Of a stretch of DNA of 26,018 nucleotides, positions 5,799 to 23,148 are shown in pieces. A program made the position numbers and the translations under genes. The DNA comes from a virus, in the IMG/VR virus record IMGVR_UViG_3300049846_002181, positions 1 through 26,018 of that record. One strand, written 5' to 3'. Every line of letters begins with the position of its first letter. Position 1 is the first letter of the stretch. The notes below the pieces were generated by a model. The model saw nothing but the letters and a program-made list of their open reading frames with translations, was not told where the DNA came from and did no database searches.

Positions 5799-8201
5799 AT
5801 GGCTAATGAGATTAAGTACAGGACCGCGGTCATCGCAAAATCGACTTTAACGGCTGAGTCGGTATTGCGGTTAACATCACTAACAGCCTCAAGAGCACTT
5901 ATCCTCAATGCGTCTGGTGAAGTAGCACATTCTGCCACTACAGATACAGAACTCGGATATTTGTCAGGTGTAACATCGTCTGTTCAAACTCAGTTGGGCG
6001 ATAAGTTTAGCAAGTCTGTAGACGATACGGATGACATCACGGAAGGCGTTAGTAAATTATTTTTTACTGACGAAAGAGCACAAGATGCTGTTGGAACAAT
6101 CTTAGTTGATTCTTCTAACATTGACTTTACTTATAGCGATGGTACTCCATCAATTACTGCTGATCTAACAAACTCGGGGGTTTCAGCAGGAACTTATGGT
6201 AGTGCAACTCAAGTAGCTCAAGTAGTAGTAGACGCTAAAGGTCGTATTACTTCTGCTACAAATATTTCAATTTCTGGCGTAGATACTAAAGAAATTAAGG
6301 TATCTGCCAATGACTCAACTCCTGGATATTTAGAAGGAAAAGTTGTTGGAGCATCCGGAAAGATTGCTATCTCTACATTAAACGATGGTGGAGACGAAGA
6401 TCTTCAAATCACAATTGGTGCTGACGTTTTTGATAAGACAACTGATGACTCTGGAGATATCACAGAGGGAAGTAATCTATTTTTTACCGATGAACGTGCT
6501 CAAGATGCAGTTGGTGGAATGGTTGCTAACTCATCTAACGTATCATTAACATACGTAGATGGAACTCCTTCTCTTACTGCTGATCTTGTCAATACTGCTG
6601 TATCTGCTGGATCATATGGTTCATCTTCTCAAGTGGGAAGTTTTACTGTTGATGCAAAAGGTCGTTTAACTGCGGCTTCTAACGTATCTATCGACCACGG
6701 TTCTATCTCAGGACTTGGTGATGATGATCACACTCAATATATTCTAGTTGCTGGAACAAGAGCTTTCTCTGGCAATCAATCAATGGGTGGAAATAAGTTA
6801 ACTTCTCTTGGAGCACCAACTGCTTCTTCTGATGCAGCTACTAAGGGATACGTTGACTCGGTTGCTGAAGGTCTTAAGCCAAAGACTGCTGCTCGTGTTG
6901 CCACTACTGCTAACATCACAATCGCTACTGCTTTAAATTCTGGCGATTCAATTGATGGTGTTACACTTGCAGATGGAGATCGCGTACTCGTTAAAGATCA
7001 GTCTACAGCTTCTCAAAACGGTATTTATATCGTTGGAGCTACACCAGCTCGTTCTTCTGACTTCGACAGTTTGTCACCAATCGATGAAATCAATGGTGCA
7101 TTAGTTGCTGTTCAAGAAGGTTCTACCCACGCTGGTAAAGTATTTGTTCAACAAGGAACTGTTGCCACTCTTGACACTGATCCTATAACCTTTGTATTCT
7201 TTAACTCGTCTGCTACATTGGTTGGTGGAGATGGTATCACTATCTCTGGTTCTAACGTATCAGTTGACCATGATGGACAAGGTTTACAATTTGTTGCCAC
7301 TCAATTATCTCTTGAATTAGACGGATCTACTCTTTCTAAGTCAGCTTCTGGTCTTAAGTTAAGTGATACTGCTGTATCTGCTGGATCTTATGGTTCTGCT
7401 TCACAAGTTGGAACATTCACTGTTGACGCTCAAGGTAGATTAACTGCTGCTGCCAGCACTTCAATTTCTATCACTGCTTCTCAAGTAAGTGATTTTAACG
7501 AAGCTGCACAAGACGCAGTTGGTGGAGCTTTAACAGACAGTGCTTCTATCGACTTTACATACAACGATGGAGCCAACACAATAACAGCTGTAGTTCTTCC
7601 TGCTGGTGTTGATCACGATTCTCTTCAGAACTTTGTTGCTAATGAGCACATTGATCACTCTTCTGTAGTATTGAGCGGTGCTGCTAATGGTGGTATTTCT
7701 TCATCTATCGGAGATATCACTGCTTCTCGTTCAATCTCTATCGACATCACAAATGCAACAGCTGAAACTTCTGCTGCTGATGCCGATCTAGTTCTAATCC
7801 ACGATGCATCTGCTAATGCACTTCGTAAGATGACTAGAGGAAACTTCTTGAGTGGTGCTATGGGCGCTTCTCCAGATGATATTTCTGAAACCAGTTTTTC
7901 TGGATCACAATCTGCTTCTAGTGCAACAGTAACTGGTTTTGCTTTTGCCAATGCAAACGTAAGAAGTTTTAGAGCACAAGTTTCAATCAGTATCGATGCA
8001 ACTTCTGATCTTTTTGAGACTTACGATTTACTCGGAGTACAAAAATCTGGTTCATGGGAAATGAGTCAGTTGTCAACTGGTGATGATACTCTTGTAACTT
8101 TTAGTATCAACTCTAGTGGTCAAATTTTATACTCTAGCTCTACTTATGCGGGATTTGCTTCTATGACAATCAAGTTCCGTGCATGGTCCATTCACGTATA
8201 A
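5799..8201 (+). CDS. Tail fibre protein 2, repeat shaft (800 aa)
   Basis: AAGGAG (5785-5790) lies 8 nt before the ATG. The N-terminal region (residues 28-70) is homologous to residues 204-245 of fibre 1 (TDTELGYLSGVTSSVQTQL). Two long shaft repeats at 79-158 and 219-298 share LFFTDERAQDAVG, TYxDGTPSxTADL and FTVDAKGRLT-type blocks; a rearranged third copy lies at 526-599. Residues 306-314 carry GLGDDDHTQ and residues 387-421 carry VTLADGDRVLVKDQ, both motifs familiar from phage fibre shafts. The last 100 residues form a beta-rich end without the tip seen in fibre 1. It is probably a second trimeric receptor-binding or side fibre. Codons are strikingly T-ending (TCT, GCT, ACT) compared with the first genes. 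Confidence 0.88.
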   Translation: MANEIKYRTAVIAKSTLTAESVLRLTSLTASRALILNASGEVAHSATTDTELGYLSGVTSSVQTQLGDKFSKSVDDTDDITEGVSKLFFTDERAQDAVGTILVDSSNIDFTYSDGTPSITADLTNSGVSAGTYGSATQVAQVVVDAKGRITSATNISISGVDTKEIKVSANDSTPGYLEGKVVGASGKIAISTLNDGGDEDLQITIGADVFDKTTDDSGDITEGSNLFFTDERAQDAVGGMVANSSNVSLTYVDGTPSLTADLVNTAVSAGSYGSSSQVGSFTVDAKGRLTAASNVSIDHGSISGLGDDDHTQYILVAGTRAFSGNQSMGGNKLTSLGAPTASSDAATKGYVDSVAEGLKPKTAARVATTANITIATALNSGDSIDGVTLADGDRVLVKDQSTASQNGIYIVGATPARSSDFDSLSPIDEINGALVAVQEGSTHAGKVFVQQGTVATLDTDPITFVFFNSSATLVGGDGITISGSNVSVDHDGQGLQFVATQLSLELDGSTLSKSASGLKLSDTAVSAGSYGSASQVGTFTVDAQGRLTAAASTSISITASQVSDFNEAAQDAVGGALTDSASIDFTYNDGANTITAVVLPAGVDHDSLQNFVANEHIDHSSVVLSGAANGGISSSIGDITASRSISIDITNATAETSAADADLVLIHDASANALRKMTRGNFLSGAMGASPDDISETSFSGSQSASSATVTGFAFANANVRSFRAQVSISIDATSDLFETYDLLGVQKSGSWEMSQLSTGDDTLVTFSINSSGQILYSSSTYAGFASMTIKFRAWSIHV
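6033..6692 (+). repeat. 80-residue shaft repeats in fibre 2, 140 residues apart
   Basis: Residues 79-158 and 219-298 of fibre 2 align without large gaps (DITEG, LFFTDERAQDAVG, DGTPS, VSAG, YGS, VDAKGR). The unit between them (161-210) is different, so the repeat alternates with other shaft material. The VSAGSYGS block recurs once more near 7372-7452. Confidence 0.8.
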
Positions 8202-8210
8202 TAATTAACT

Positions 8211-8250
8211 AGGAAGGAGAGGGAAGAAATTCTCTCTCCTCTTTCTCATG
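8211..8250 (+). promoter_or_regulatory. Hairpin between Shine-Dalgarno and start of the 49-aa gene
   Basis: AGGA (8211-8214) is followed directly by an 11-bp stem (8215-8225 with 8230-8240, one G-U pair) closed by the GNRA tetraloop GAAA (8226-8229), then 7 nt (8241-8247) and ATG (8248). Unfolded, the AGGA core is 33 nt from the start, too far for initiation; folded, 7 nt remain. The geometry matches a second site at 11041-11078. CTTTCTC after the stem is a poor terminator tract. Confidence 0.65.
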
Positions 8251-8397
8251 ATTAAAAAGCAAGGTAAAAAATATACTCTCTATAGTAAAGATGGCAGTCG
8301 AAATCTCGGCTCTGCTTCTTCATTAGAAGGTATAAAAAAAAGAGAAAAACAAGTTAATTTTTTTAAACATCTACGCAATAAGCTTAAAGGAAAATAA
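8248..8397 (+). CDS. Small basic phage protein, 49 aa
   Basis: An ATG at 8248 opens 49 codons and a TAA. The product is very basic. It contains YTLYSKDGSRNLG (residues 9-21) and a Lys/Arg-rich helix ending QVNFFKHLRNKLKGK. This pattern (a short beta hairpin with YSxDGxxxLG, then a helix with RxxQVxxFKH) resembles small proteins I recall from many tailed phages, whose function is not known to me. It fills most of the gap between fibre 2 and the next gene, which starts 2 nt after its stop. Its start is served only by the Shine-Dalgarno site in front of the hairpin at 8215-8240. It may bind nucleic acid or an acidic partner, but that is inference from charge only. Confidence 0.8.
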   Translation: MIKKQGKKYTLYSKDGSRNLGSASSLEGIKKREKQVNFFKHLRNKLKGK

Positions 8398-8399
8398 GC

Positions 8400-9494
8400 A
8401 TGGCTATGGATGGGATGCGCAAAAATTTAAGTCAGTTCGATGGAATGGAAACCCTTCGTTCTGTTCACGAAGATAAAAATCAAACATTACGTGTAACCAA
8501 TGGTCTATCATCAATACCCCCTTGGTATTCTCGCGCCGAATTAGCGTATAATGGCGCTGGCTCAGTAACTCATGTTGACTTCTACGGCGGTATCCTACAC
8601 GAGATACGTGAGGTTCTTTGTACTGCAGACTTACTAGGCTCGCTTAGTGGGACGTATTTCAAAGTATATTCAGAGTACGATGAAAGTACATACTATGTTT
8701 GGTATAACGTTGATAATTTAAGTGTAGATCCTTCACCAGTAAGTGCAATAGGCATTGAAGTTCCAATACAGTCAAATGATGCCGCTGATGTAGTTGCGTT
8801 TGCGACAGAACAAGCACTTCGACCAATAGAAGACTTCAAGGTTACTCGGACTAAGAACCGAGTAAGAATAGAGAATACAAGAAAAGGAACTAGTAGTTCA
8901 ATAGCTGATTTTGGCACAGGATTTACTCTTACAACAGTACAAGAGGGATCTGAGCAGTTAATTAAATCGGTTGATATTCCATATGATGGAAAAACTAAAT
9001 ATTTATTTAATGGGCAAGAACGTAAATTTGAAGTAGTGCCGATAAGCTCTGCCACAATAGATGTAGATATAAGCGCCGAGAACGGTGATACAATAGCCAT
9101 ATCTCGCCATGACAATCCAGTTAGACTAACATCAGAAACAAACTATTTGCCAGGTGCACTATCGACTTCTGCATATACACAAATATACACGTACACTGCT
9201 ACATATGATTTTCGTATTCGCATGTTAAAGGTAAAAGCAGATACATTCGGATCATTTAGAATAAAGAAAAATGCAACAATAGAAGATTACTCACAAACCA
9301 GCCAGTTACTTCGTAATGCCGAGTTTGAGTTTATCGAAGATCTTGATGTCATAATCGGTGATATCATAACTATTGAGTTTTTACCAGACAGAATACAGGG
9401 GTTAGCCAACTATAACTTTTTCTTTAGAGTGGAAGGTTACGAACCTATATCAACTATATATAGGACAATAAACATGGAGGATATATGTTTGTAA
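8400..9494 (+). CDS. Tail appendage protein with YxVWF-type module (364 aa)
   Basis: AAAGGAA (8386-8392) precedes the ATG by 7 nt. Residues 1-80 form an N-terminal domain (PPWYSRAELAYNG, then beta segments). Residues 84-183 are a compact module with YYVWYNVD (98-105), a GIEVPI strand, a helix, RVRIENTRKGTSSSIADFG and a terminal TTVQEG. The same module occurs twice in the 1270-aa nozzle-like protein. Residues 184-364 are beta-rich with a probable jelly-roll fold. It is most likely a virion protein of the adsorption apparatus, perhaps one that contacts the nozzle. The last 10 nt overlap the next gene. No named family is recognised. Confidence 0.82.
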   Translation: MAMDGMRKNLSQFDGMETLRSVHEDKNQTLRVTNGLSSIPPWYSRAELAYNGAGSVTHVDFYGGILHEIREVLCTADLLGSLSGTYFKVYSEYDESTYYVWYNVDNLSVDPSPVSAIGIEVPIQSNDAADVVAFATEQALRPIEDFKVTRTKNRVRIENTRKGTSSSIADFGTGFTLTTVQEGSEQLIKSVDIPYDGKTKYLFNGQERKFEVVPISSATIDVDISAENGDTIAISRHDNPVRLTSETNYLPGALSTSAYTQIYTYTATYDFRIRMLKVKADTFGSFRIKKNATIEDYSQTSQLLRNAEFEFIEDLDVIIGDIITIEFLPDRIQGLANYNFFFRVEGYEPISTIYRTINMEDICL

Positions 9495-9784
9495 GATTTG
9501 ACAAGAAGTCATTAAATGTTGACGTGCTAGTGGGAGTTGCCGAGGAGTACAAGCCAAATGAAGAAATCATTGGTTTGTATAATGAGGCACAAGAGTTGAA
9601 AGAGTCGATTAATAATTACCTAGACTCAAAATTCGCCACTAGAGACCAGGCAGCAATACTTAAGGTTCTTTCAGAAAATAAAGAGTTAGAAGACGAGTGG
9701 AAGAACTTTTTGAAAAATGACTTTAGTGCAAAAGTTCAACAGATACAAGAAAAAATAGATGGAATAAACAAACAGGGACAATAA
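9485..9784 (+). CDS. Small helical protein, possible chaperone (99 aa)
   Basis: The protein is almost wholly helical and charged: residues about 25-48 (EEIIGLYNEAQELKESINNY) and 60-99 look like amphipathic or coiled-coil helices, ending KINGQ-type polar residues. GGAGG (9476-9480) lies 4 nt before the ATG and inside the last codons of the preceding gene. The gene overlaps that gene by 10 nt, so the two are probably translationally coupled. Small helical proteins in this position are often chaperones or linkers for appendage proteins, but the sequence gives no direct proof. Confidence 0.75.
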   Translation: MFVRFDKKSLNVDVLVGVAEEYKPNEEIIGLYNEAQELKESINNYLDSKFATRDQAAILKVLSENKELEDEWKNFLKNDFSAKVQQIQEKIDGINKQGQ

Positions 9785-9815
9785 ATATATCGTCCCTGAT
9801 TAGGGGAGGTAGTTA

Positions 9816-11033
9816 ATGTTATCAGATTTTTCATTGTTGGTCGCAAAGTATAACTCCTCGCTGCCTACGTTATCAGACGGGCAAGCGAATAGTTTACAGG
9901 TCGACGTAAATGGACGGTTACTCGTCCAAGCTGACGTTACGGTCTTAATTGATTTTTTAGGACTTAACGGAGCAGCAAACAGCGCTAACATTCTTATTGT
10001 TGGTACTGAAGATGGAACAGGCGGTGGTACAGCACATGCGGTTAGATTAGCTTCTGATGGCGCTGTAATGATCAATGATAACGGTGGATCAATTACGGTT
10101 GATGCTAGTAATCTCGACATAAGAGATTTGGTATTTGCCACCGATAAAGTTGATGTATCTGGTTCTTCAAACGTAGCAGTTACAGACGGCGGCGGATCTC
10201 TTACCGTAGATGCTTCTGACTTAGACATCCGTGACTTGTCCCACTCACAAGACTCCATTAAGGTGGGAGATGGAACTGATTTCTTAGCAGTTAATACAGA
10301 CGGATCTATCAATATTACCGATAATGGTGGGTCACTTACTGTCGATGCGGTTAATCTCGATATCCGCGACTTGGCATTTTCTACCGATAAAGTTGATGTT
10401 AGTGGGTCAGTAGTTGCTTTAGATGCACCTACGCTTGCTGCTCTTGAATCAATTACTGTTCAAAACGGCGCAGGTGCTGCAGCAGTAAATATCCAGGATG
10501 GCGGAAATTCCATTACTGTCGATGCCAGTGATTTGGACATCAGAGATCTATCGCATTCACAGGACAGTGTTAAAATTGGCGATGGTACAGACTTTTTGGC
10601 AGTTAATGCCGACGGGAGTATCAATGTTCAAGCTACTGTATCATTTGCTGGTTCTGAAGAGTATGCAGCTACAGATGCTTTGGCAGCCGGAGCCGATGGT
10701 CTTGTTACTATCACAGCTGCTGCAACTCCCTGGATAGATGCAGCAACTATTGCAGTTGGTGCTGGTCAAATTCTACACTTGTATGGATTCGATTGGACTT
10801 GTGATCAAAACGCCAATGCTCGTTTAATTAGCGACGACGGCGTGGATATTATTGTATATAAACATTCACTAAATTCTTCAGCTATGCCAGATCAATTTAA
10901 GTATTGGGGTGAAGCTGGAAGAATTGAGATTGCCGGAGCTGCTGGAAAGTCTGTAAAGTTACAGATTAAGAAGCGTTCTACTACAGGTGGAAACGCACAA
11001 TCGTTCGGTTCGCTACACGCACGTTTAGTTTAA
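9816..11033 (+). CDS. Repeat-rich tail appendage protein (405 aa)
   Basis: GGGGAGG (9803-9809) lies 6 nt before the ATG. Residues 1-45 form an N-terminal segment with NGRLLVQADV. Residues 87-270 contain four copies of a LDIRDL beta repeat (at 101, 137, 182 and 241) that alternate between two forms: one ends in TDKVDVSGS, the other in SHSQDSxKxGDGTDFLAVN and DGSIN. Residues about 275-405 form a distal globular domain (TPWIDAATIAVGAGQILHLY, ending SFGSLHARLV). The alternating repeats suggest a beta-helical or stacked-strand shaft, so a short fibre or collar appendage is likely. Related LDIRDL/GDG repeats are familiar from uncultured phage structural proteins. Confidence 0.85.
   Translation: MLSDFSLLVAKYNSSLPTLSDGQANSLQVDVNGRLLVQADVTVLIDFLGLNGAANSANILIVGTEDGTGGGTAHAVRLASDGAVMINDNGGSITVDASNLDIRDLVFATDKVDVSGSSNVAVTDGGGSLTVDASDLDIRDLSHSQDSIKVGDGTDFLAVNTDGSINITDNGGSLTVDAVNLDIRDLAFSTDKVDVSGSVVALDAPTLAALESITVQNGAGAAAVNIQDGGNSITVDASDLDIRDLSHSQDSVKIGDGTDFLAVNADGSINVQATVSFAGSEEYAATDALAAGADGLVTITAAATPWIDAATIAVGAGQILHLYGFDWTCDQNANARLISDDGVDIIVYKHSLNSSAMPDQFKYWGEAGRIEIAGAAGKSVKLQIKKRSTTGGNAQSFGSLHARLV
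10116..10625 (+). repeat. A-B-A-B protein repeat in the 405-aa appendage
   Basis: Form A (FxTDKVDVSGS) at residues 101-117 and 182-198 alternates with form B (SHSQDSxKxGDGTDFLAVN) at 137-166 and 241-270. The two B copies are nearly identical in protein but differ at many synonymous positions in DNA (10228-10313 against 10540-10625). Confidence 0.8.
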
Positions 11034-11040
11034 TTATTTT

Positions 11041-11078
11041 AGGAGAGGAGGGAAGCAATTCCCTCCTTCATAATTATG
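11041..11078 (+). promoter_or_regulatory. Hairpin between Shine-Dalgarno and start of the 105-aa gene
   Basis: AGGA (11041-11044) is followed by a stem of nine Watson-Crick pairs (11046-11054 with 11059-11067) plus a G-U pair (11045/11068), closed by the GNRA tetraloop GCAA (11055-11058). Then come 7 nt (11069-11075) and ATG (11076). No Shine-Dalgarno sequence lies between stem and start. The layout is the same as at 8211-8250, including the AA/TT pairs closing the loop. TTCATAATT after the stem is not a terminator tract. Confidence 0.68.
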
Positions 11079-11393
11079 GCGGAGTTCTCAAATTTTGAAT
11101 TATCAACTAGTGAGGGAGTAGAAGACAGTTACGTTGCGGGAGTTGTTTCTGTATCTACGTCACAAGTAGAAGCTAAAGTTGGCGGATCTCCACTGACTGG
11201 CAGAGAAGTACTACGTATTTTCAATAATTCAAACACAACAATTTACTTTGGACCATCTGGTTTAACTGCATCTACAGGTGAACCTATATATAAAAATCAG
11301 TGGGTTGAAATAAAAGCTAAAGATTCATTATCTGTATATCTATTAACAGCTTCTGGAACTGCAAGTGATGTGCGTATACAGGAGATGGCATGA
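11076..11393 (+). CDS. Small beta-rich virion protein (105 aa)
   Basis: The product (MAEFSNFELSTSEGVEDS...) is beta-rich with EVLRIFNNSNTTIYFGPSGL and a closing DVRIQEMA. The pattern of a bonding domain followed by 'xIYxGPSGxTxSTG' is common in small phage appendage proteins. The only plausible start is the ATG at 11076, because no other Met, GTG or TTG with a nearby Shine-Dalgarno sequence is present. That start depends on the hairpin at 11045-11068. The stop overlaps the next start (ATGA), so it is coupled to the genes through 12648. Exact role unknown. Confidence 0.82.
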   Translation: MAEFSNFELSTSEGVEDSYVAGVVSVSTSQVEAKVGGSPLTGREVLRIFNNSNTTIYFGPSGLTASTGEPIYKNQWVEIKAKDSLSVYLLTASGTASDVRIQEMA

Positions 11394-17247: not shown

Positions 17248-20200
17248 ATGAACCTCAGAATATGCAGAGGTCTAATAACTCTACCTTCAGAATTAAACAC
17301 TAAAGAAGGGGCACTTGAGGTAGCCGATAATGTAGTTATCGATGCAGATGATACAATCGAATCTCGCAGAGGATATGAAAACTTCGGTAATTCATTTGCA
17401 ACAGCATCTGATAGGCTAAAACAACTTCTTGTCTATAAAAATAGAATTCTTCGCCACTACAACAACACGCTACAATTTGACTCTACAGGAAGCGGAAGCT
17501 TCTCGACGTTTAATGGAAGTTATAGCGAACTTGAGTCTGGCCTTAGAATTAAGGGGATTGAAACTAGCGGTAACTTCTATTTCACTACTTCCGATGGTAT
17601 TAAAAAAATATCAGCAAGATCAACATCTGAACTATCAACAGCAAGTGGATACATAACTGATTCTGGTGGCGTAAAAGCAGTGGATGTTAATGCATCGCTT
17701 CTATACACTAGTGGTGGATTTCTTCCCCCACAATCAAAATGCGCATATAGACTAGTTTGGGGAATACGAGACAACAACAATAATCTTATTCTTGGATATC
17801 CATCATCCCGATTTGTATTAACTAATAGTTCAAAAAATATTAAAACTCCAGAAACATTTACTTATACATTCACGTCTGGCTCTGGTAATGATTATGATGG
17901 TTCAACCGCTAATCGATATCTAACCTTTGATTCTAAAGATAATAAGTATTTTGTATGGTTTGAACATAGTACATATACCGATAGACCAAATGATTCTGCA
18001 ACCATTGGTCGAACAGAGATTAAAGTTAATATTGATGGACTATCAACTTCTACCCAAATTGCTGCCACTACTGCCAATGCAATAGCTAATATTGTAACTG
18101 AGTTTGAAGTAACAGTCAATACATCAACTATTACATTTGTAAGTTTAGAAGATGGCGAAGATCTCATCGATGCAACATCTAGTGCTGCACTAACTGTAGT
18201 CACTGCGACTATCTCAAAAGATGGGACTATTGCTCAAGGTCAAAATGCAAATGCTGAAGTAACATTTAATATCCCGACGGCAGCACAAAGCACTAATTAT
18301 TTCTATCAACTATATAGAACTGCAATTATTACGGCTACTGATGACCAAACTGTCGACGATATAGATCCAGGTGATGAGATGAATCTTGTTGCCGAATATA
18401 ATTTAACTGACGCGGAAGTGTTAGCGGGGAGCGTTACATATGAAGATATTACTACAGAAACTTTTAGAGCTTCTGGGGCTTTTCTCTACACCAATCCTAT
18501 CACCGGTTCCGGTATCCTCCAAGCCAACGAAAGACCGCCAGTCGCGAAGGACTTAGCCCTATTTAGAAACTCTACATTCTACGCCAATACAAAAACCGCC
18601 CACAAGAAACAATTCTCGCTACTCGGAGTGAGTGACTTTGTATCAGGAACCTCTAGCCTACTAGTGGGGAATGGCAGCGGAATACGTGAATATGTATTCT
18701 ATGGTGTAACTGAAGTCAGTCAGATAGTCACTGATACATTTGCTAATACAACAGCTAATTCATGGATAGAACTTAACTCTGCAAGGGATGAAAGAGCATA
18801 CTATGTTTGGTTCAATAAAGGAAGCGGTAGTGATCCTAGTGTTAGTGGGCGCATTGGTATCGAAGTTGATATATCATCTTTGGTATCAGCTAATGATGTG
18901 GCAACTAAACTAAAAGAAGTCATTGATTTAATGGATGACTTTAGTGCAACGGTTTTGACTAATACTGTAACTATCACCAATCATAAATATGGAAAAACAA
19001 CTGATATAGCCATGGGATCAACTCCTCCTGGAGGCTCATGGGCGGTATCCGTTACAACACAAGGTGATGGAGAAGATACCAGTCTACAAAAGGTTCAATT
19101 GTCTAGTCTAGTTTCTGCCGGACAGTCAATTGATGAGACAGCACGAAGTTTGGTCAAGGTAATCAACAGCGATACTTTATCTCCAGTTAATGCATACTAT
19201 TTGTCTGGTCCAGATGATCTACCTGGCATTATCCTATTTGAAGCTAAATCACTCACTGATGACTCTTTTTATATTGCAGTTGATGATGCCCTTATTGGTG
19301 ACAATTTCAATCCTGAAATGCCACAAATTGAGACATTAACTGCTATCTCATTGGTAAATCCAACACAAATTACAGCAGCTGCTCATGGTTTAGTTAGTGG
19401 GGACGAAGTTTATATATTTAACACAGACTCAACTCCTGCCTTACTTGGAAATTATGTAGTTACTTTTATCGACGTAAATACATTCAGTGTTCCAGTTAAC
19501 GTTACTACAGCGGGAACTACCGGGCTATGGTTTAAATCGAATGTTGTTTCTGATAATGAAGAAACCCCAAATCGTGTATTCTATTCTAAACTAGGTCAAC
19601 CAGAAGCTGTGCCACTAGTTAATTATATTGATATTGGTCCAAAAGATCAAGAAGTTAAACGAATACTTGCGTTACGTGACAGTCTTTTTGTGTTAAAAGA
19701 AGATGGCGTTTATATCATCACTGGAACCACCGCCCCCAACTTCAGTGCTCGACTATTGGATGGAAGCAGCGCAATAACTGCCCCAGACACAGCAATGGTA
19801 CTGAACAATAAGATATATTGTTTAACAGATGATGGTATAGTGTCAATATCAGAGTCTGGTGTTGAAGTTGTATCTCGCTTTATTGAAAATAAAATATTTG
19901 ACATAGCAAACGTTAGGCATCCTTATAAAACATTAAGTTTTGGTGTATCTTATGATAAGGATAGAGCATACTTAATCTGGATGCCATCTAAGACGACAGA
20001 TACTGTGGCAACTCAATGTTATAGATACAATATATTTACACAAACTTGGACACGTTGGACTTTATCCGCAACTTGTGGAATTGTCAATAATGCACAAGAA
20101 AAGATGTATTTAGGTTCTGGTAACAGCAACTATATATTTGAAGAACGCAAGAATGGCGATAGAACTGACTATGCCGATATCAGTTTAGTTAAAAGCATCA

Positions 20201-21470: not shown

Positions 21471-21475
21471 GTTTA

Positions 21476-21505
21476 TTAACCTGTGTCAAATATAACAACT
21501 ATAAT
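21476..21505 (+). promoter_or_regulatory. Possible promoter with -10 close to the start codon
   Basis: A perfect -10 TATAAT (21500-21505) lies 5 nt before the ATG at 21511, with a 4-of-6 -35 (TTAACC, 21476-21481) 18 bp upstream. No Shine-Dalgarno sequence precedes the ATG. A start site near 21511-21513 would give a leaderless or nearly leaderless mRNA. The weak -35 keeps confidence low. Confidence 0.3.
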
Positions 21506-21510
21506 TAGCC

Positions 21511-23148
21511 ATGGCATATTTAAACTACAACCAGCAATCTCAGAATAACCAACAGCAGGGGATGAACCAGCAGCAACAGCAGGGTCAGATTCCTACGACA
21601 GGGGCTCCAGCAGTCTCTAATCCTGCTCCTTTGCCAATGCCTAACCAGCAAACTCAGCAACAACAAGCTAGACAGTCCCAGAAAGGATCTGGACAGTTTG
21701 TCAATTTACGTGGATATATTCAGCAAAACCAACCTAAGGCACAAGAAATTTCTGGAGCAGTGGGGCAAAACATTGGTCAACAAGCTCAACAAATTGGCCA
21801 ACAAGTGCAAAAGCAGCAACAAGATTTATCGGCAAGAATTGCTGAAAATCAGGGAAGAATTGGGGAACAACAACAATTTGGTCAACAACAAATACAACAA
21901 GCGTTAGCACAAGAAAAGACGGGAACACAAAATCCTTTTTCTGCTGAAAATTTAAATAGATTTAGAGACATTGTATCAGGAAGAGAGACATTTGGAACTG
22001 TTGCGGGATTGAATTTAGCTCCAGCACAACAGCAGTTTGGAGAATTAAGCAGATACACACAGAATGTTGGACAAGCTCCAGTTAGGAATGAATTACTAAG
22101 AGATACATTTTCGAAAGTTGGCCAATATGGAACAGGTCAACGTAGCCTAGATGAAATGTTACTAGCTTCAAGTCAACCAGCAATGCAATCACTAGTTGAA
22201 GGGGCAAAAGCAACTCAGCAACAATATGCAAATCAATTACAACAAGCGCAATCACAAGCCGCAATACAACAAGCCGCTTTAGCCGAAGCACAAAAAGCAG
22301 CTAGTAAGGGGTTACAAGAGCAATTGACTGGTGAACAAACCGGTATTAAGTCTGCGGTCGATTTAAGTGCGCAACAAGCTAAAGATGAAGTTACACAATT
22401 GTTTAATCGCATAAAAAGTGGACAAATATCAAAGGCAGATGCAGAACTTCTTGGTATCAAACAAGGTCAAATTTTAATGAAAGACGTTGTTGATCCTAAT
22501 AGAGCAGCTGCTGAAAGAAGTTTAAGTCAATATACAAATCAAGGTTTAAGAGATCTTACTCCATATTCATCAGAAACTCGTGCTATTGCCGGTGGAACTG
22601 ACTATCAAGACTACTTAGATAGAATTGGGGTATCAGCAGAAGATGTAATTAATGAGAAACAATTAGCTCAATCACGAGCGTTGGCACAACTCGCTGGACA
22701 AACAGATCCGTATCTTAATGCTAATGTTGGCGGATTTCAAAAGTCTAAAGAAGCTATACTTGGTGAATTAAAGCAACAACAAGAACTAGCCAATAAGTCA
22801 TATGAACATATGGTTAAGAACGCTGTTGGTTCACAAATCGCGGCTGATATACTAGGGCTAGATGTTGGTAAAATAGATAATTGGGATCTCAGATTTAACC
22901 CTTATGTACAGTATTATCAAACTCCAGAAAATGTATTATCTGCTAGAATGCACGGAGCTGGATTAACTGATCCTAGATTCTCTGGTAAGATAGAAGATAT
23001 GAACCGTCGATTGGCACAGTATATGGACACATATCGGGGAAAAATCAATGAATCACTCGGTGCCAGACAGGCACAGATAGTTCAAGATGGTGGGATAATC
23101 AAACCAAGATACCAACGCTTTGGAAGAATACGTGGAAAAATTAAGTAA
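21511..23148 (+). CDS. Ejection-type internal virion protein, Gln-rich (545 aa)
   Basis: The first 60 residues are extremely Gln/Asn-rich and disordered (NYNQQSQNNQQQG). GSGQFVNLRGYIQQNQ (residues 59-74) begins the conserved-looking core, followed by long helical and coiled-coil stretches to about 330. A mixed domain covers residues about 340-480. The C-terminus carries VQDGGIIKPRYQRFGRIRGK, a DGG motif with a basic tail. Context (after the nozzle gene, before two more such proteins) fits proteins stored in the head and injected with DNA, comparable in role to T7 gp14-gp16. No Shine-Dalgarno sequence is seen before the ATG; the next in-frame ATG (21562) also has no suitable spacing. The last 17 nt overlap the acetyltransferase gene. 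Confidence 0.83.
   Translation: MAYLNYNQQSQNNQQQGMNQQQQQGQIPTTGAPAVSNPAPLPMPNQQTQQQQARQSQKGSGQFVNLRGYIQQNQPKAQEISGAVGQNIGQQAQQIGQQVQKQQQDLSARIAENQGRIGEQQQFGQQQIQQALAQEKTGTQNPFSAENLNRFRDIVSGRETFGTVAGLNLAPAQQQFGELSRYTQNVGQAPVRNELLRDTFSKVGQYGTGQRSLDEMLLASSQPAMQSLVEGAKATQQQYANQLQQAQSQAAIQQAALAEAQKAASKGLQEQLTGEQTGIKSAVDLSAQQAKDEVTQLFNRIKSGQISKADAELLGIKQGQILMKDVVDPNRAAAERSLSQYTNQGLRDLTPYSSETRAIAGGTDYQDYLDRIGVSAEDVINEKQLAQSRALAQLAGQTDPYLNANVGGFQKSKEAILGELKQQQELANKSYEHMVKNAVGSQIAADILGLDVGKIDNWDLRFNPYVQYYQTPENVLSARMHGAGLTDPRFSGKIEDMNRRLAQYMDTYRGKINESLGARQAQIVQDGGIIKPRYQRFGRIRGKIK

Follow-up and report, generated by a model that had tools for sequence, protein, structure and literature searches.

Two hairpins within a closely packed array of viral structural genes are probably gene-end hairpins accommodated inside split ribosome-binding sites of the T4 gene 38 type, in which a folded stem would bridge a Shine-Dalgarno (SD) sequence and a distant start codon. 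The two sites most likely represent further cases of this known, rare arrangement rather than a new device. The window, i.e. the whole stretch of DNA analysed, corresponds to a complete virus record (26,018 bases), which may cover only part of the genome; its structural genes, and the features of both sites described below, lie on the plus strand.

Two stable hairpins lie between presumed SD sequences and start codons

The first site follows a gene for an 800-aa fibre-like structural protein (5799..8201), homologous segments of which occur in relatives. A presumed SD sequence, AGGA (8211..8214), overlapped by an in-frame TAG (8210-8212 region), is followed directly by hairpin H1 (8215..8240; -16.4 kcal/mol), located 13 nt past the stop codon of the fibre-like gene. 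H1 has the sequence AGGAGAGGGAA-GAAA-TTCTCTCTCCT, with a purine 5′ arm, 11 bp including one G-U, and a GAAA tetraloop closed by AA/TT. The 7-nt spacer CTTTCTC (8241..8247), which doubles as a weak U-tract of H1, leads to the ATG at 8248 of a gene (g8248; 8248..8397) for a 49-aa protein. At the second site, a gene for a repeat-bearing, fibre-like protein of 405 aa (9816..11033) is followed by the presumed SD sequence AGGA (11041..11044; AGGAG to 11045) and by hairpin H2 (11045..11068; -16.2 kcal/mol), which begins about 12 nt past the stop codon. H2, GAGGAGGGAA-GCAA-TTCCCTCCTT, likewise has a purine 5′ arm and a loop closed by AA/TT, here a GCAA tetraloop, and comprises 10 bp, or 9 without the terminal G-U that forms its outermost pair. 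Then come the spacer CATAATT (11069..11075) and the ATG at 11076 of g11076 (11076..11393), encoding a structural-region protein of 105 aa. The 7-nt spacing at this site requires counting the terminal G-U; otherwise it reads AGGAG, 9 bp and 8 nt.

Both downstream genes look real when compared with their relatives. The g8248 family is widespread in viral contigs (288 relatives found), and the protein shares 61-67% identity with those of contigs L101, L050 and L051, the L101 protein being at 67%. g11076 is 38-60% identical to its relatives over its length, and its start is backed by alignment with the homologues of L013, L003 and L004, with which it coincides.

H1 and H2 are the top two short hairpins by stability in the 26-kb window, and when sub-windows containing them are folded and compared with dinucleotide-shuffled sequences, z lies between about -2 and -4. 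The AGGA-to-ATG distance is 33 nt for g8248 and 31 nt for g11076, both above the roughly 20 nt beyond which a site counts as split in the manner of T4 genes 38 and 25, and folding of the stems would leave 7 nt. No SD pairing was found 3-12 nt before either ATG (+0.2 kcal/mol for g8248 and -0.3 kcal/mol for g11076), as against -4 to -12 kcal/mol for most other genes in the window. Genes 15287 and 21511 also have no SD sequence there, the latter having none at all, so that a missing SD is not peculiar to the two genes downstream of the hairpins. The intergenic gaps at the two sites (46 and 42 nt) are the sole gaps exceeding 40 nt between positions 244 and 15796. Thus, what a preliminary description had noticed, namely an AGGA, a 10-11-bp GNRA-capped stem, exactly 7 nt and an ATG at both sites, with no other usable SD, with a spacing above 30 nt that becomes normal upon folding, and within the only sizeable gaps of this region, is borne out by the sequence and by folding.

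Alternative starts, such as might apply to T4 denA (see below), were ruled out for both genes. The frame of g8248 contains no ATG, GTG or TTG back to the TAG at the AGGA, that of g11076 runs into a nearby upstream stop with none of these codons before it, and neither gene has a further in-frame start codon within its first 30 codons. In the predicted ensemble, the AGGA of H1 is mostly paired with UCUU (unpaired fractions 0.02-0.32) and that of H2 is about half open (0.27-0.59). Removal of 8215-8240 in silico yields TAATAATTAACTAGGA-CTTTCTC-ATG, an ordinary site. An Rfam search with the hairpins matched no family. That H1 and H2 are recent copies of one element is unsupported, since they align with each other no better (score 16.5) than H2 does with unrelated terminators (16.5-19.5).

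Resemblance to split ribosome-binding sites of phage T4

In T4 genes 38 and 25, SD-AUG distances of 22 and 27 nt are shortened by RNA structure to 5 and 11 nt, mutations that destabilise the structure reduce initiation, and the gene 25 structure, for which there is reporter and DMS probing evidence, occurs only in close T-even phages (PMC3014915, a 2010 review). The preliminary description had invoked gene 38 as a precedent, and the T4 sequence indeed has the same anatomy: its leader, located directly after fibre gene 37, reads TAAGGAG-AGGGGC-UUCG-GCCCUU-CUAAAU-ATG (-14.1 kcal/mol). As at the window's sites, a purine-rich SD sequence (AAGGAG) is flush with a short stable stem bearing a stable tetraloop, the stem ends about 6 nt before the ATG, no SD lies past the stem, and the whole follows the stop codon of a long tail-fibre gene. 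Gene 38 has a UUCG loop, an SD overlapping the stop codon and a shortening from 22 to 5 nt, whereas the window has GNRA loops, presumed SD sequences 8-10 nt past the stop and a predicted shortening from 31-33 to 7 nt; moreover, its arrangement is present in two copies before unrelated downstream genes. The gene 25 structure resembles those of the window in cutting the distance between SD and AUG and in being restricted to a lineage, but it belongs to another gene, is less simple, and has its SD still inside the gene upstream, gene 26, which abuts gene 25.

H1 and H2 have the anatomy of gene-end hairpins

Relatives were gathered as contigs sharing the tail adaptor (37-55% identity) and contigs sharing g11076, retrieved in full or almost in full. 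Across 907 kb of this sequence, we found 35 hairpins of -12 kcal/mol or better right after stop codons, many of which resemble H1 and H2 in their purine-rich 5′ arm, often a GAAA, GCAA or UUCG loop, and a tail rich in T (in most cases 5-7 of 8 nt). Such hairpins are terminator-like and follow structural genes, and the relatives mostly carry the SD of the next gene 3′ of them; at L101 5268, L103 2779 and L105 5976, for example, it is placed after the hairpin, unlike in the window, where it precedes it. Apart from H1 and H2, which are among the 35, every one of these hairpins is separated from the next start by at least 13 nt. In addition, a core identical to the window's, AGGAGGGAAGNAATTCCCTCCT, carries a full T-run in unrelated viruses, and the core GAGGGAAGNAATTCNCTC recurs in other virus contigs, usually 9-47 nt past a long open reading frame and often followed by a T-run. 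Given this resemblance and the cores shared with T-run hairpins, H1 and H2 are, by their anatomy, members of the gene-end, terminator-like class.

Like intrinsic terminators, they combine a purine 5′ arm, a tetraloop and a pyrimidine 3′ arm in a G+C-rich stem 12-13 nt after a stop codon; they differ in their weak U-tracts (4 T in 8 nt), which run directly into the next start codon. The T tracts had been judged too poor for terminators. This argument is indecisive, as the U-tracts are weak but within range, scoring at the 41st (H1) and 29th (H2) percentile of gene-end hairpins, and near-identical hairpins have full T-runs.

The hairpins are missing from the homologous junctions assessed

Among 34 assessed g8248 junctions, a hairpin is present in one, that of the window itself. 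L101, the nearest relative to share this junction, has the same order of fibre gene, g8248 and g8400 and a similar end of the fibre gene (TAATAAT), followed by the hairpin-free leader TAATAATAAGGAGTATCT-ATG, an ordinary AAGGAG-ATG site whose build is similar to that left in the window by removal of H1. The stem is missing in the homologues of L101, L013, L003, L055 and L059 and in the remaining assessed g8248 junctions, and the stem of H2 is absent from the g11076 homologues examined. L004 and L005 have a UUCG terminator upstream of their g11076 homologue, yet an AGG 8 nt before its ATG. In most relatives of g8248, the start is found at or close to the upstream gene's stop and has no SD, suggesting that an SD may be dispensable for this gene. 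No homologue carrying the same stem and no virus close enough for covariation analysis was found among the viral contigs, and a tail adaptor profile run against GTDB genomes returned no relatives.

The location of H1 inside the SD-ATG spacer is, as read from these junctions, a lineage-specific difference; a gain here appears likelier than a loss in L101, since none of the 33 other assessed g8248 junctions has a hairpin. A conserved device in homologous genes is hence rejected: the homologues assessed keep the genes, lack the stem, and have near SD sequences or begin at the upstream stop, which is the kind of outcome that the preliminary description had named as a refutation. The earlier proposal of a regular translational device rather than chance is only partly supported: a conserved, family-wide element finds no support in these junctions, and the non-random geometry finds support in the following comparison.

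SD words at the stem edge accompany closely following start codons

We selected gene-end hairpins of -11 kcal/mol or better with an ATG 4-10 nt behind them that opens a reading frame of at least 40 codons, and with no AGGA, GGAG, GAGG or AAGG between hairpin and ATG. This selection retained 5 of 97 hairpins. Four of the five bore an SD word at the stem's 5′ edge, as did one of the remaining 92 (p = 7e-6); exclusion of the window gave proportions of 2/3 vs 1/92 (p = 0.002). An added 1.12 Mb of viral contigs contained one qualifying hairpin, without an SD at its edge (3/46 others had one), and thus no SD-hairpin-ATG case; as an independent enlargement, it speaks neither for nor against the association. 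Pooling both sets gave 4/6 vs 4/138 (p = 6e-5), numbers that are small, partly post hoc and inclusive of the window's two hairpins and of T4; with the window removed, the similarly small and partly post hoc counts were 2/4 vs 4/138 (p = 0.009). It is otherwise rare for a gene-end hairpin to adjoin an SD directly on its 5′ side (about 3%). An SD at the stem edge is associated with an ATG that follows the hairpin by 4-10 nt, and the geometry is unlikely to have arisen by chance.

The positives outside the window were L054 and T4 denA. At L054 4759-4792, AAAGGC is followed by a 13-bp stem, TTTTAAAC and the ATG of a small gene that precedes the g11076 homologue of this contig. T4 had been included as a control because of its genes 38 and 25, and the hit in denA was unexpected. 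The denA leader after nrdB, TTTTAAGGAG-UGGGCC-GCAA-GGCCCA-UUUUAUU-ATG, in which the stem end shares one A/U, apparently shows the same anatomy as gene 38. Its predicted folds partly hide the SD, the same ambiguity as for H1.

A model for initiation across the hairpins and its alternatives

Comparison with the relatives indicates that H1 and H2 are gene-end hairpins of the kind usual after structural genes in this group, placed in this lineage within the spacer from SD to start of the next gene and not upstream of the SD. With only 7 nt between each hairpin and the start codon, there is no room for a promoter that could give a leadered message free of the hairpin, and readthrough transcripts would carry it in the region where the next gene is initiated. 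Judging from T4, the 30S subunit would pair with the AGGA(G) adjoining the stem on its 5′ side, the folded stem would remove the extra 24-26 nt, and the AUG would then be presented at a normal spacing of 7 nt; that is, ribosomes would initiate across folded H1 and H2. The weak U-tract would permit readthrough, and the hairpin may also attenuate transcription or protect the 3′ end of part of the upstream message. Taken further, and with considerable reserve, both sites might be dual-purpose intercistronic elements, partial terminator or 3′-end cap and ribosome-binding-site spacer in one, such that translation would continue only on readthrough transcripts, while the stem stays folded; such elements would have arisen on several occasions, behind fibre genes of phages and behind others (twice in this virus, in L054, in T4 gene 38 and perhaps in T4 denA).

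The SD-less starts of most g8248 relatives make SD-independent initiation or reinitiation the main rival: H1 and H2 would be terminators or 3′-end stabilisers only, with an incidental AGGA. Their membership in the same hairpin class as the relatives' gene-end hairpins fits this view, as does the SD-less gene 21511. It nonetheless leaves unexplained why a rare placement of the SD at the stem edge is seen at both sites; the U-tracts are below the median, and, with no room for a promoter between hairpin and ATG, readthrough and initiation beyond the hairpin are required in any case. Furthermore, 42-46 nt past a stop codon with a stem of -16 kcal/mol intervening is a poor distance for reinitiation. 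We therefore regard this alternative as unlikely, though it deserves to be taken seriously. Much less probable is a regulated switch in which a GNRA-looped stem, acting through temperature, a helicase or a bound protein as formerly suggested, turns both genes on or off. Two such similar stems in one genome and the ability of the AGGA of H1 to pair with UCUU of the 3′ flank might hint at it; yet ordinary gene-end hairpins in this group often have these loops as well, and homologues and Rfam, as described above, offer no counterpart. RNA thermometers melt in the physiological range and free the SD, unlike the predicted stems, which still have about -8 kcal/mol at 65 °C and leave the presumed SD outside the main stem. 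Tuning by temperature, a helicase or a protein has no support.

The stem-loops occupy the widest gaps between genes in a long array on one strand, as might processing sites, e.g. for RNase III, that separate messages. RNase III substrates span about two helical turns, for which 10-11 bp are short, and short GNRA-capped stems are typical of terminators instead, which makes processing very improbable. Equally improbable is a boundary at the DNA level, with hairpins marking junctions where viruses exchange fibre modules: gene content near fibre genes does vary among relatives and the hairpins lie at such junctions, but their orientation tracks transcription (purine arm 5′), and a DNA-level search of phage records gave a single 90-bp match and no similarity to other viruses across the hairpins. 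A chance coincidence of hairpin, AGGA and ATG seems the most remote of these explanations. Although A-G-rich arms raise the odds of AGGA-like words near a stem, the purine arms of the relatives' hairpins do not extend into an SD (the 1/92 given above), and the window's top two hairpins both share the layout.

Implications for start-codon annotation

SD-hairpin-AUG sites were previously known from a couple of T4 genes, to which the window adds two probable ones in an unrelated virus. Together with the L054 match and the likely unrecognised denA case, they suggest that hairpins at gene ends can be turned by phages into functional ribosome-binding sites. Where a gene caller expects an SD 4-12 nt before the start, starts of this kind can be misplaced, and denA may be an instance: the annotated GTG start in the T4 record falls within the stem, and the crystallised endonuclease II (2wsh) starts, behind a tag, at the downstream MKEIATEYS.

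Probable Shine-Dalgarno-hairpin-ATG starts in T4 and a comparison virus

In phage T4, in which gene 38 is the known precedent for a Shine-Dalgarno (SD) sequence separated from its ATG by a hairpin, the denA leader likewise consists of AAGGAG, a stem with a GCAA loop and an ATG (minus strand of the fetched T4 sequence L148, 27928-27960, corresponding to NC_000866 about 137927-137959). The ATG behind the stem opens MKEIATEYS, while the GTG annotated as the denA start lies within the stem itself. In the crystallised denA protein (2wsh), the first native residue, preceded by a tag, is that of the downstream ATG. The annotated GTG is likely a mis-annotation, and denA likely an additional T4 case of this arrangement.

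A candidate beyond T4 was found in comparison sequence L054 (4750-4803), comprising AAAGGC, a 13-bp stem, TTTTAAAC and the ATG of a small gene that precedes the homologue of window gene 11076-11393 (g11076). The tail following this stem (TTTTAAAC) is terminator-like. A small gene (about 45-85 aa) also lies immediately 5′ of the g11076 homologue in L013, L003, L055 and L059; the window lacks it, the junction being taken up by the hairpin at 11045-11068 instead.

Other starts and gene families in the window

An additional window hairpin, CAGGGACAATAAATATATCGTCCCTG (9773-9798; -11.3 kcal/mol), overlaps the stop of gene 9485-9784 and is followed by the SD AGGGGAGG, i.e., in the conventional order.

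The 49-aa product of window gene 8248-8397 has 288 relatives in viral contigs. Genes of this family (window; comparison sequences L207-L286) usually start without an SD and overlap or abut the stop of an upstream ORF of at least about 500 codons. The Vibrio phage pYD38-A and the Klebsiella phage KpV2811 carry the same 47-residue stretch of this product as the N-terminal part of a ~470-residue protein annotated as hypothetical. Gene 21511 (545 aa), whose A+T-rich leader (21471-21511) has no SD-like word near the ATG, shows that this virus has a second way of starting genes without an SD.

Finally, the 364-aa (gene 8400) and 1270-aa (gene 17248) proteins have a repeat domain in common (window regions 8600-8970 and 18700-19070, respectively): in many virus contigs, both proteins find their matches in one and the same set of segments.
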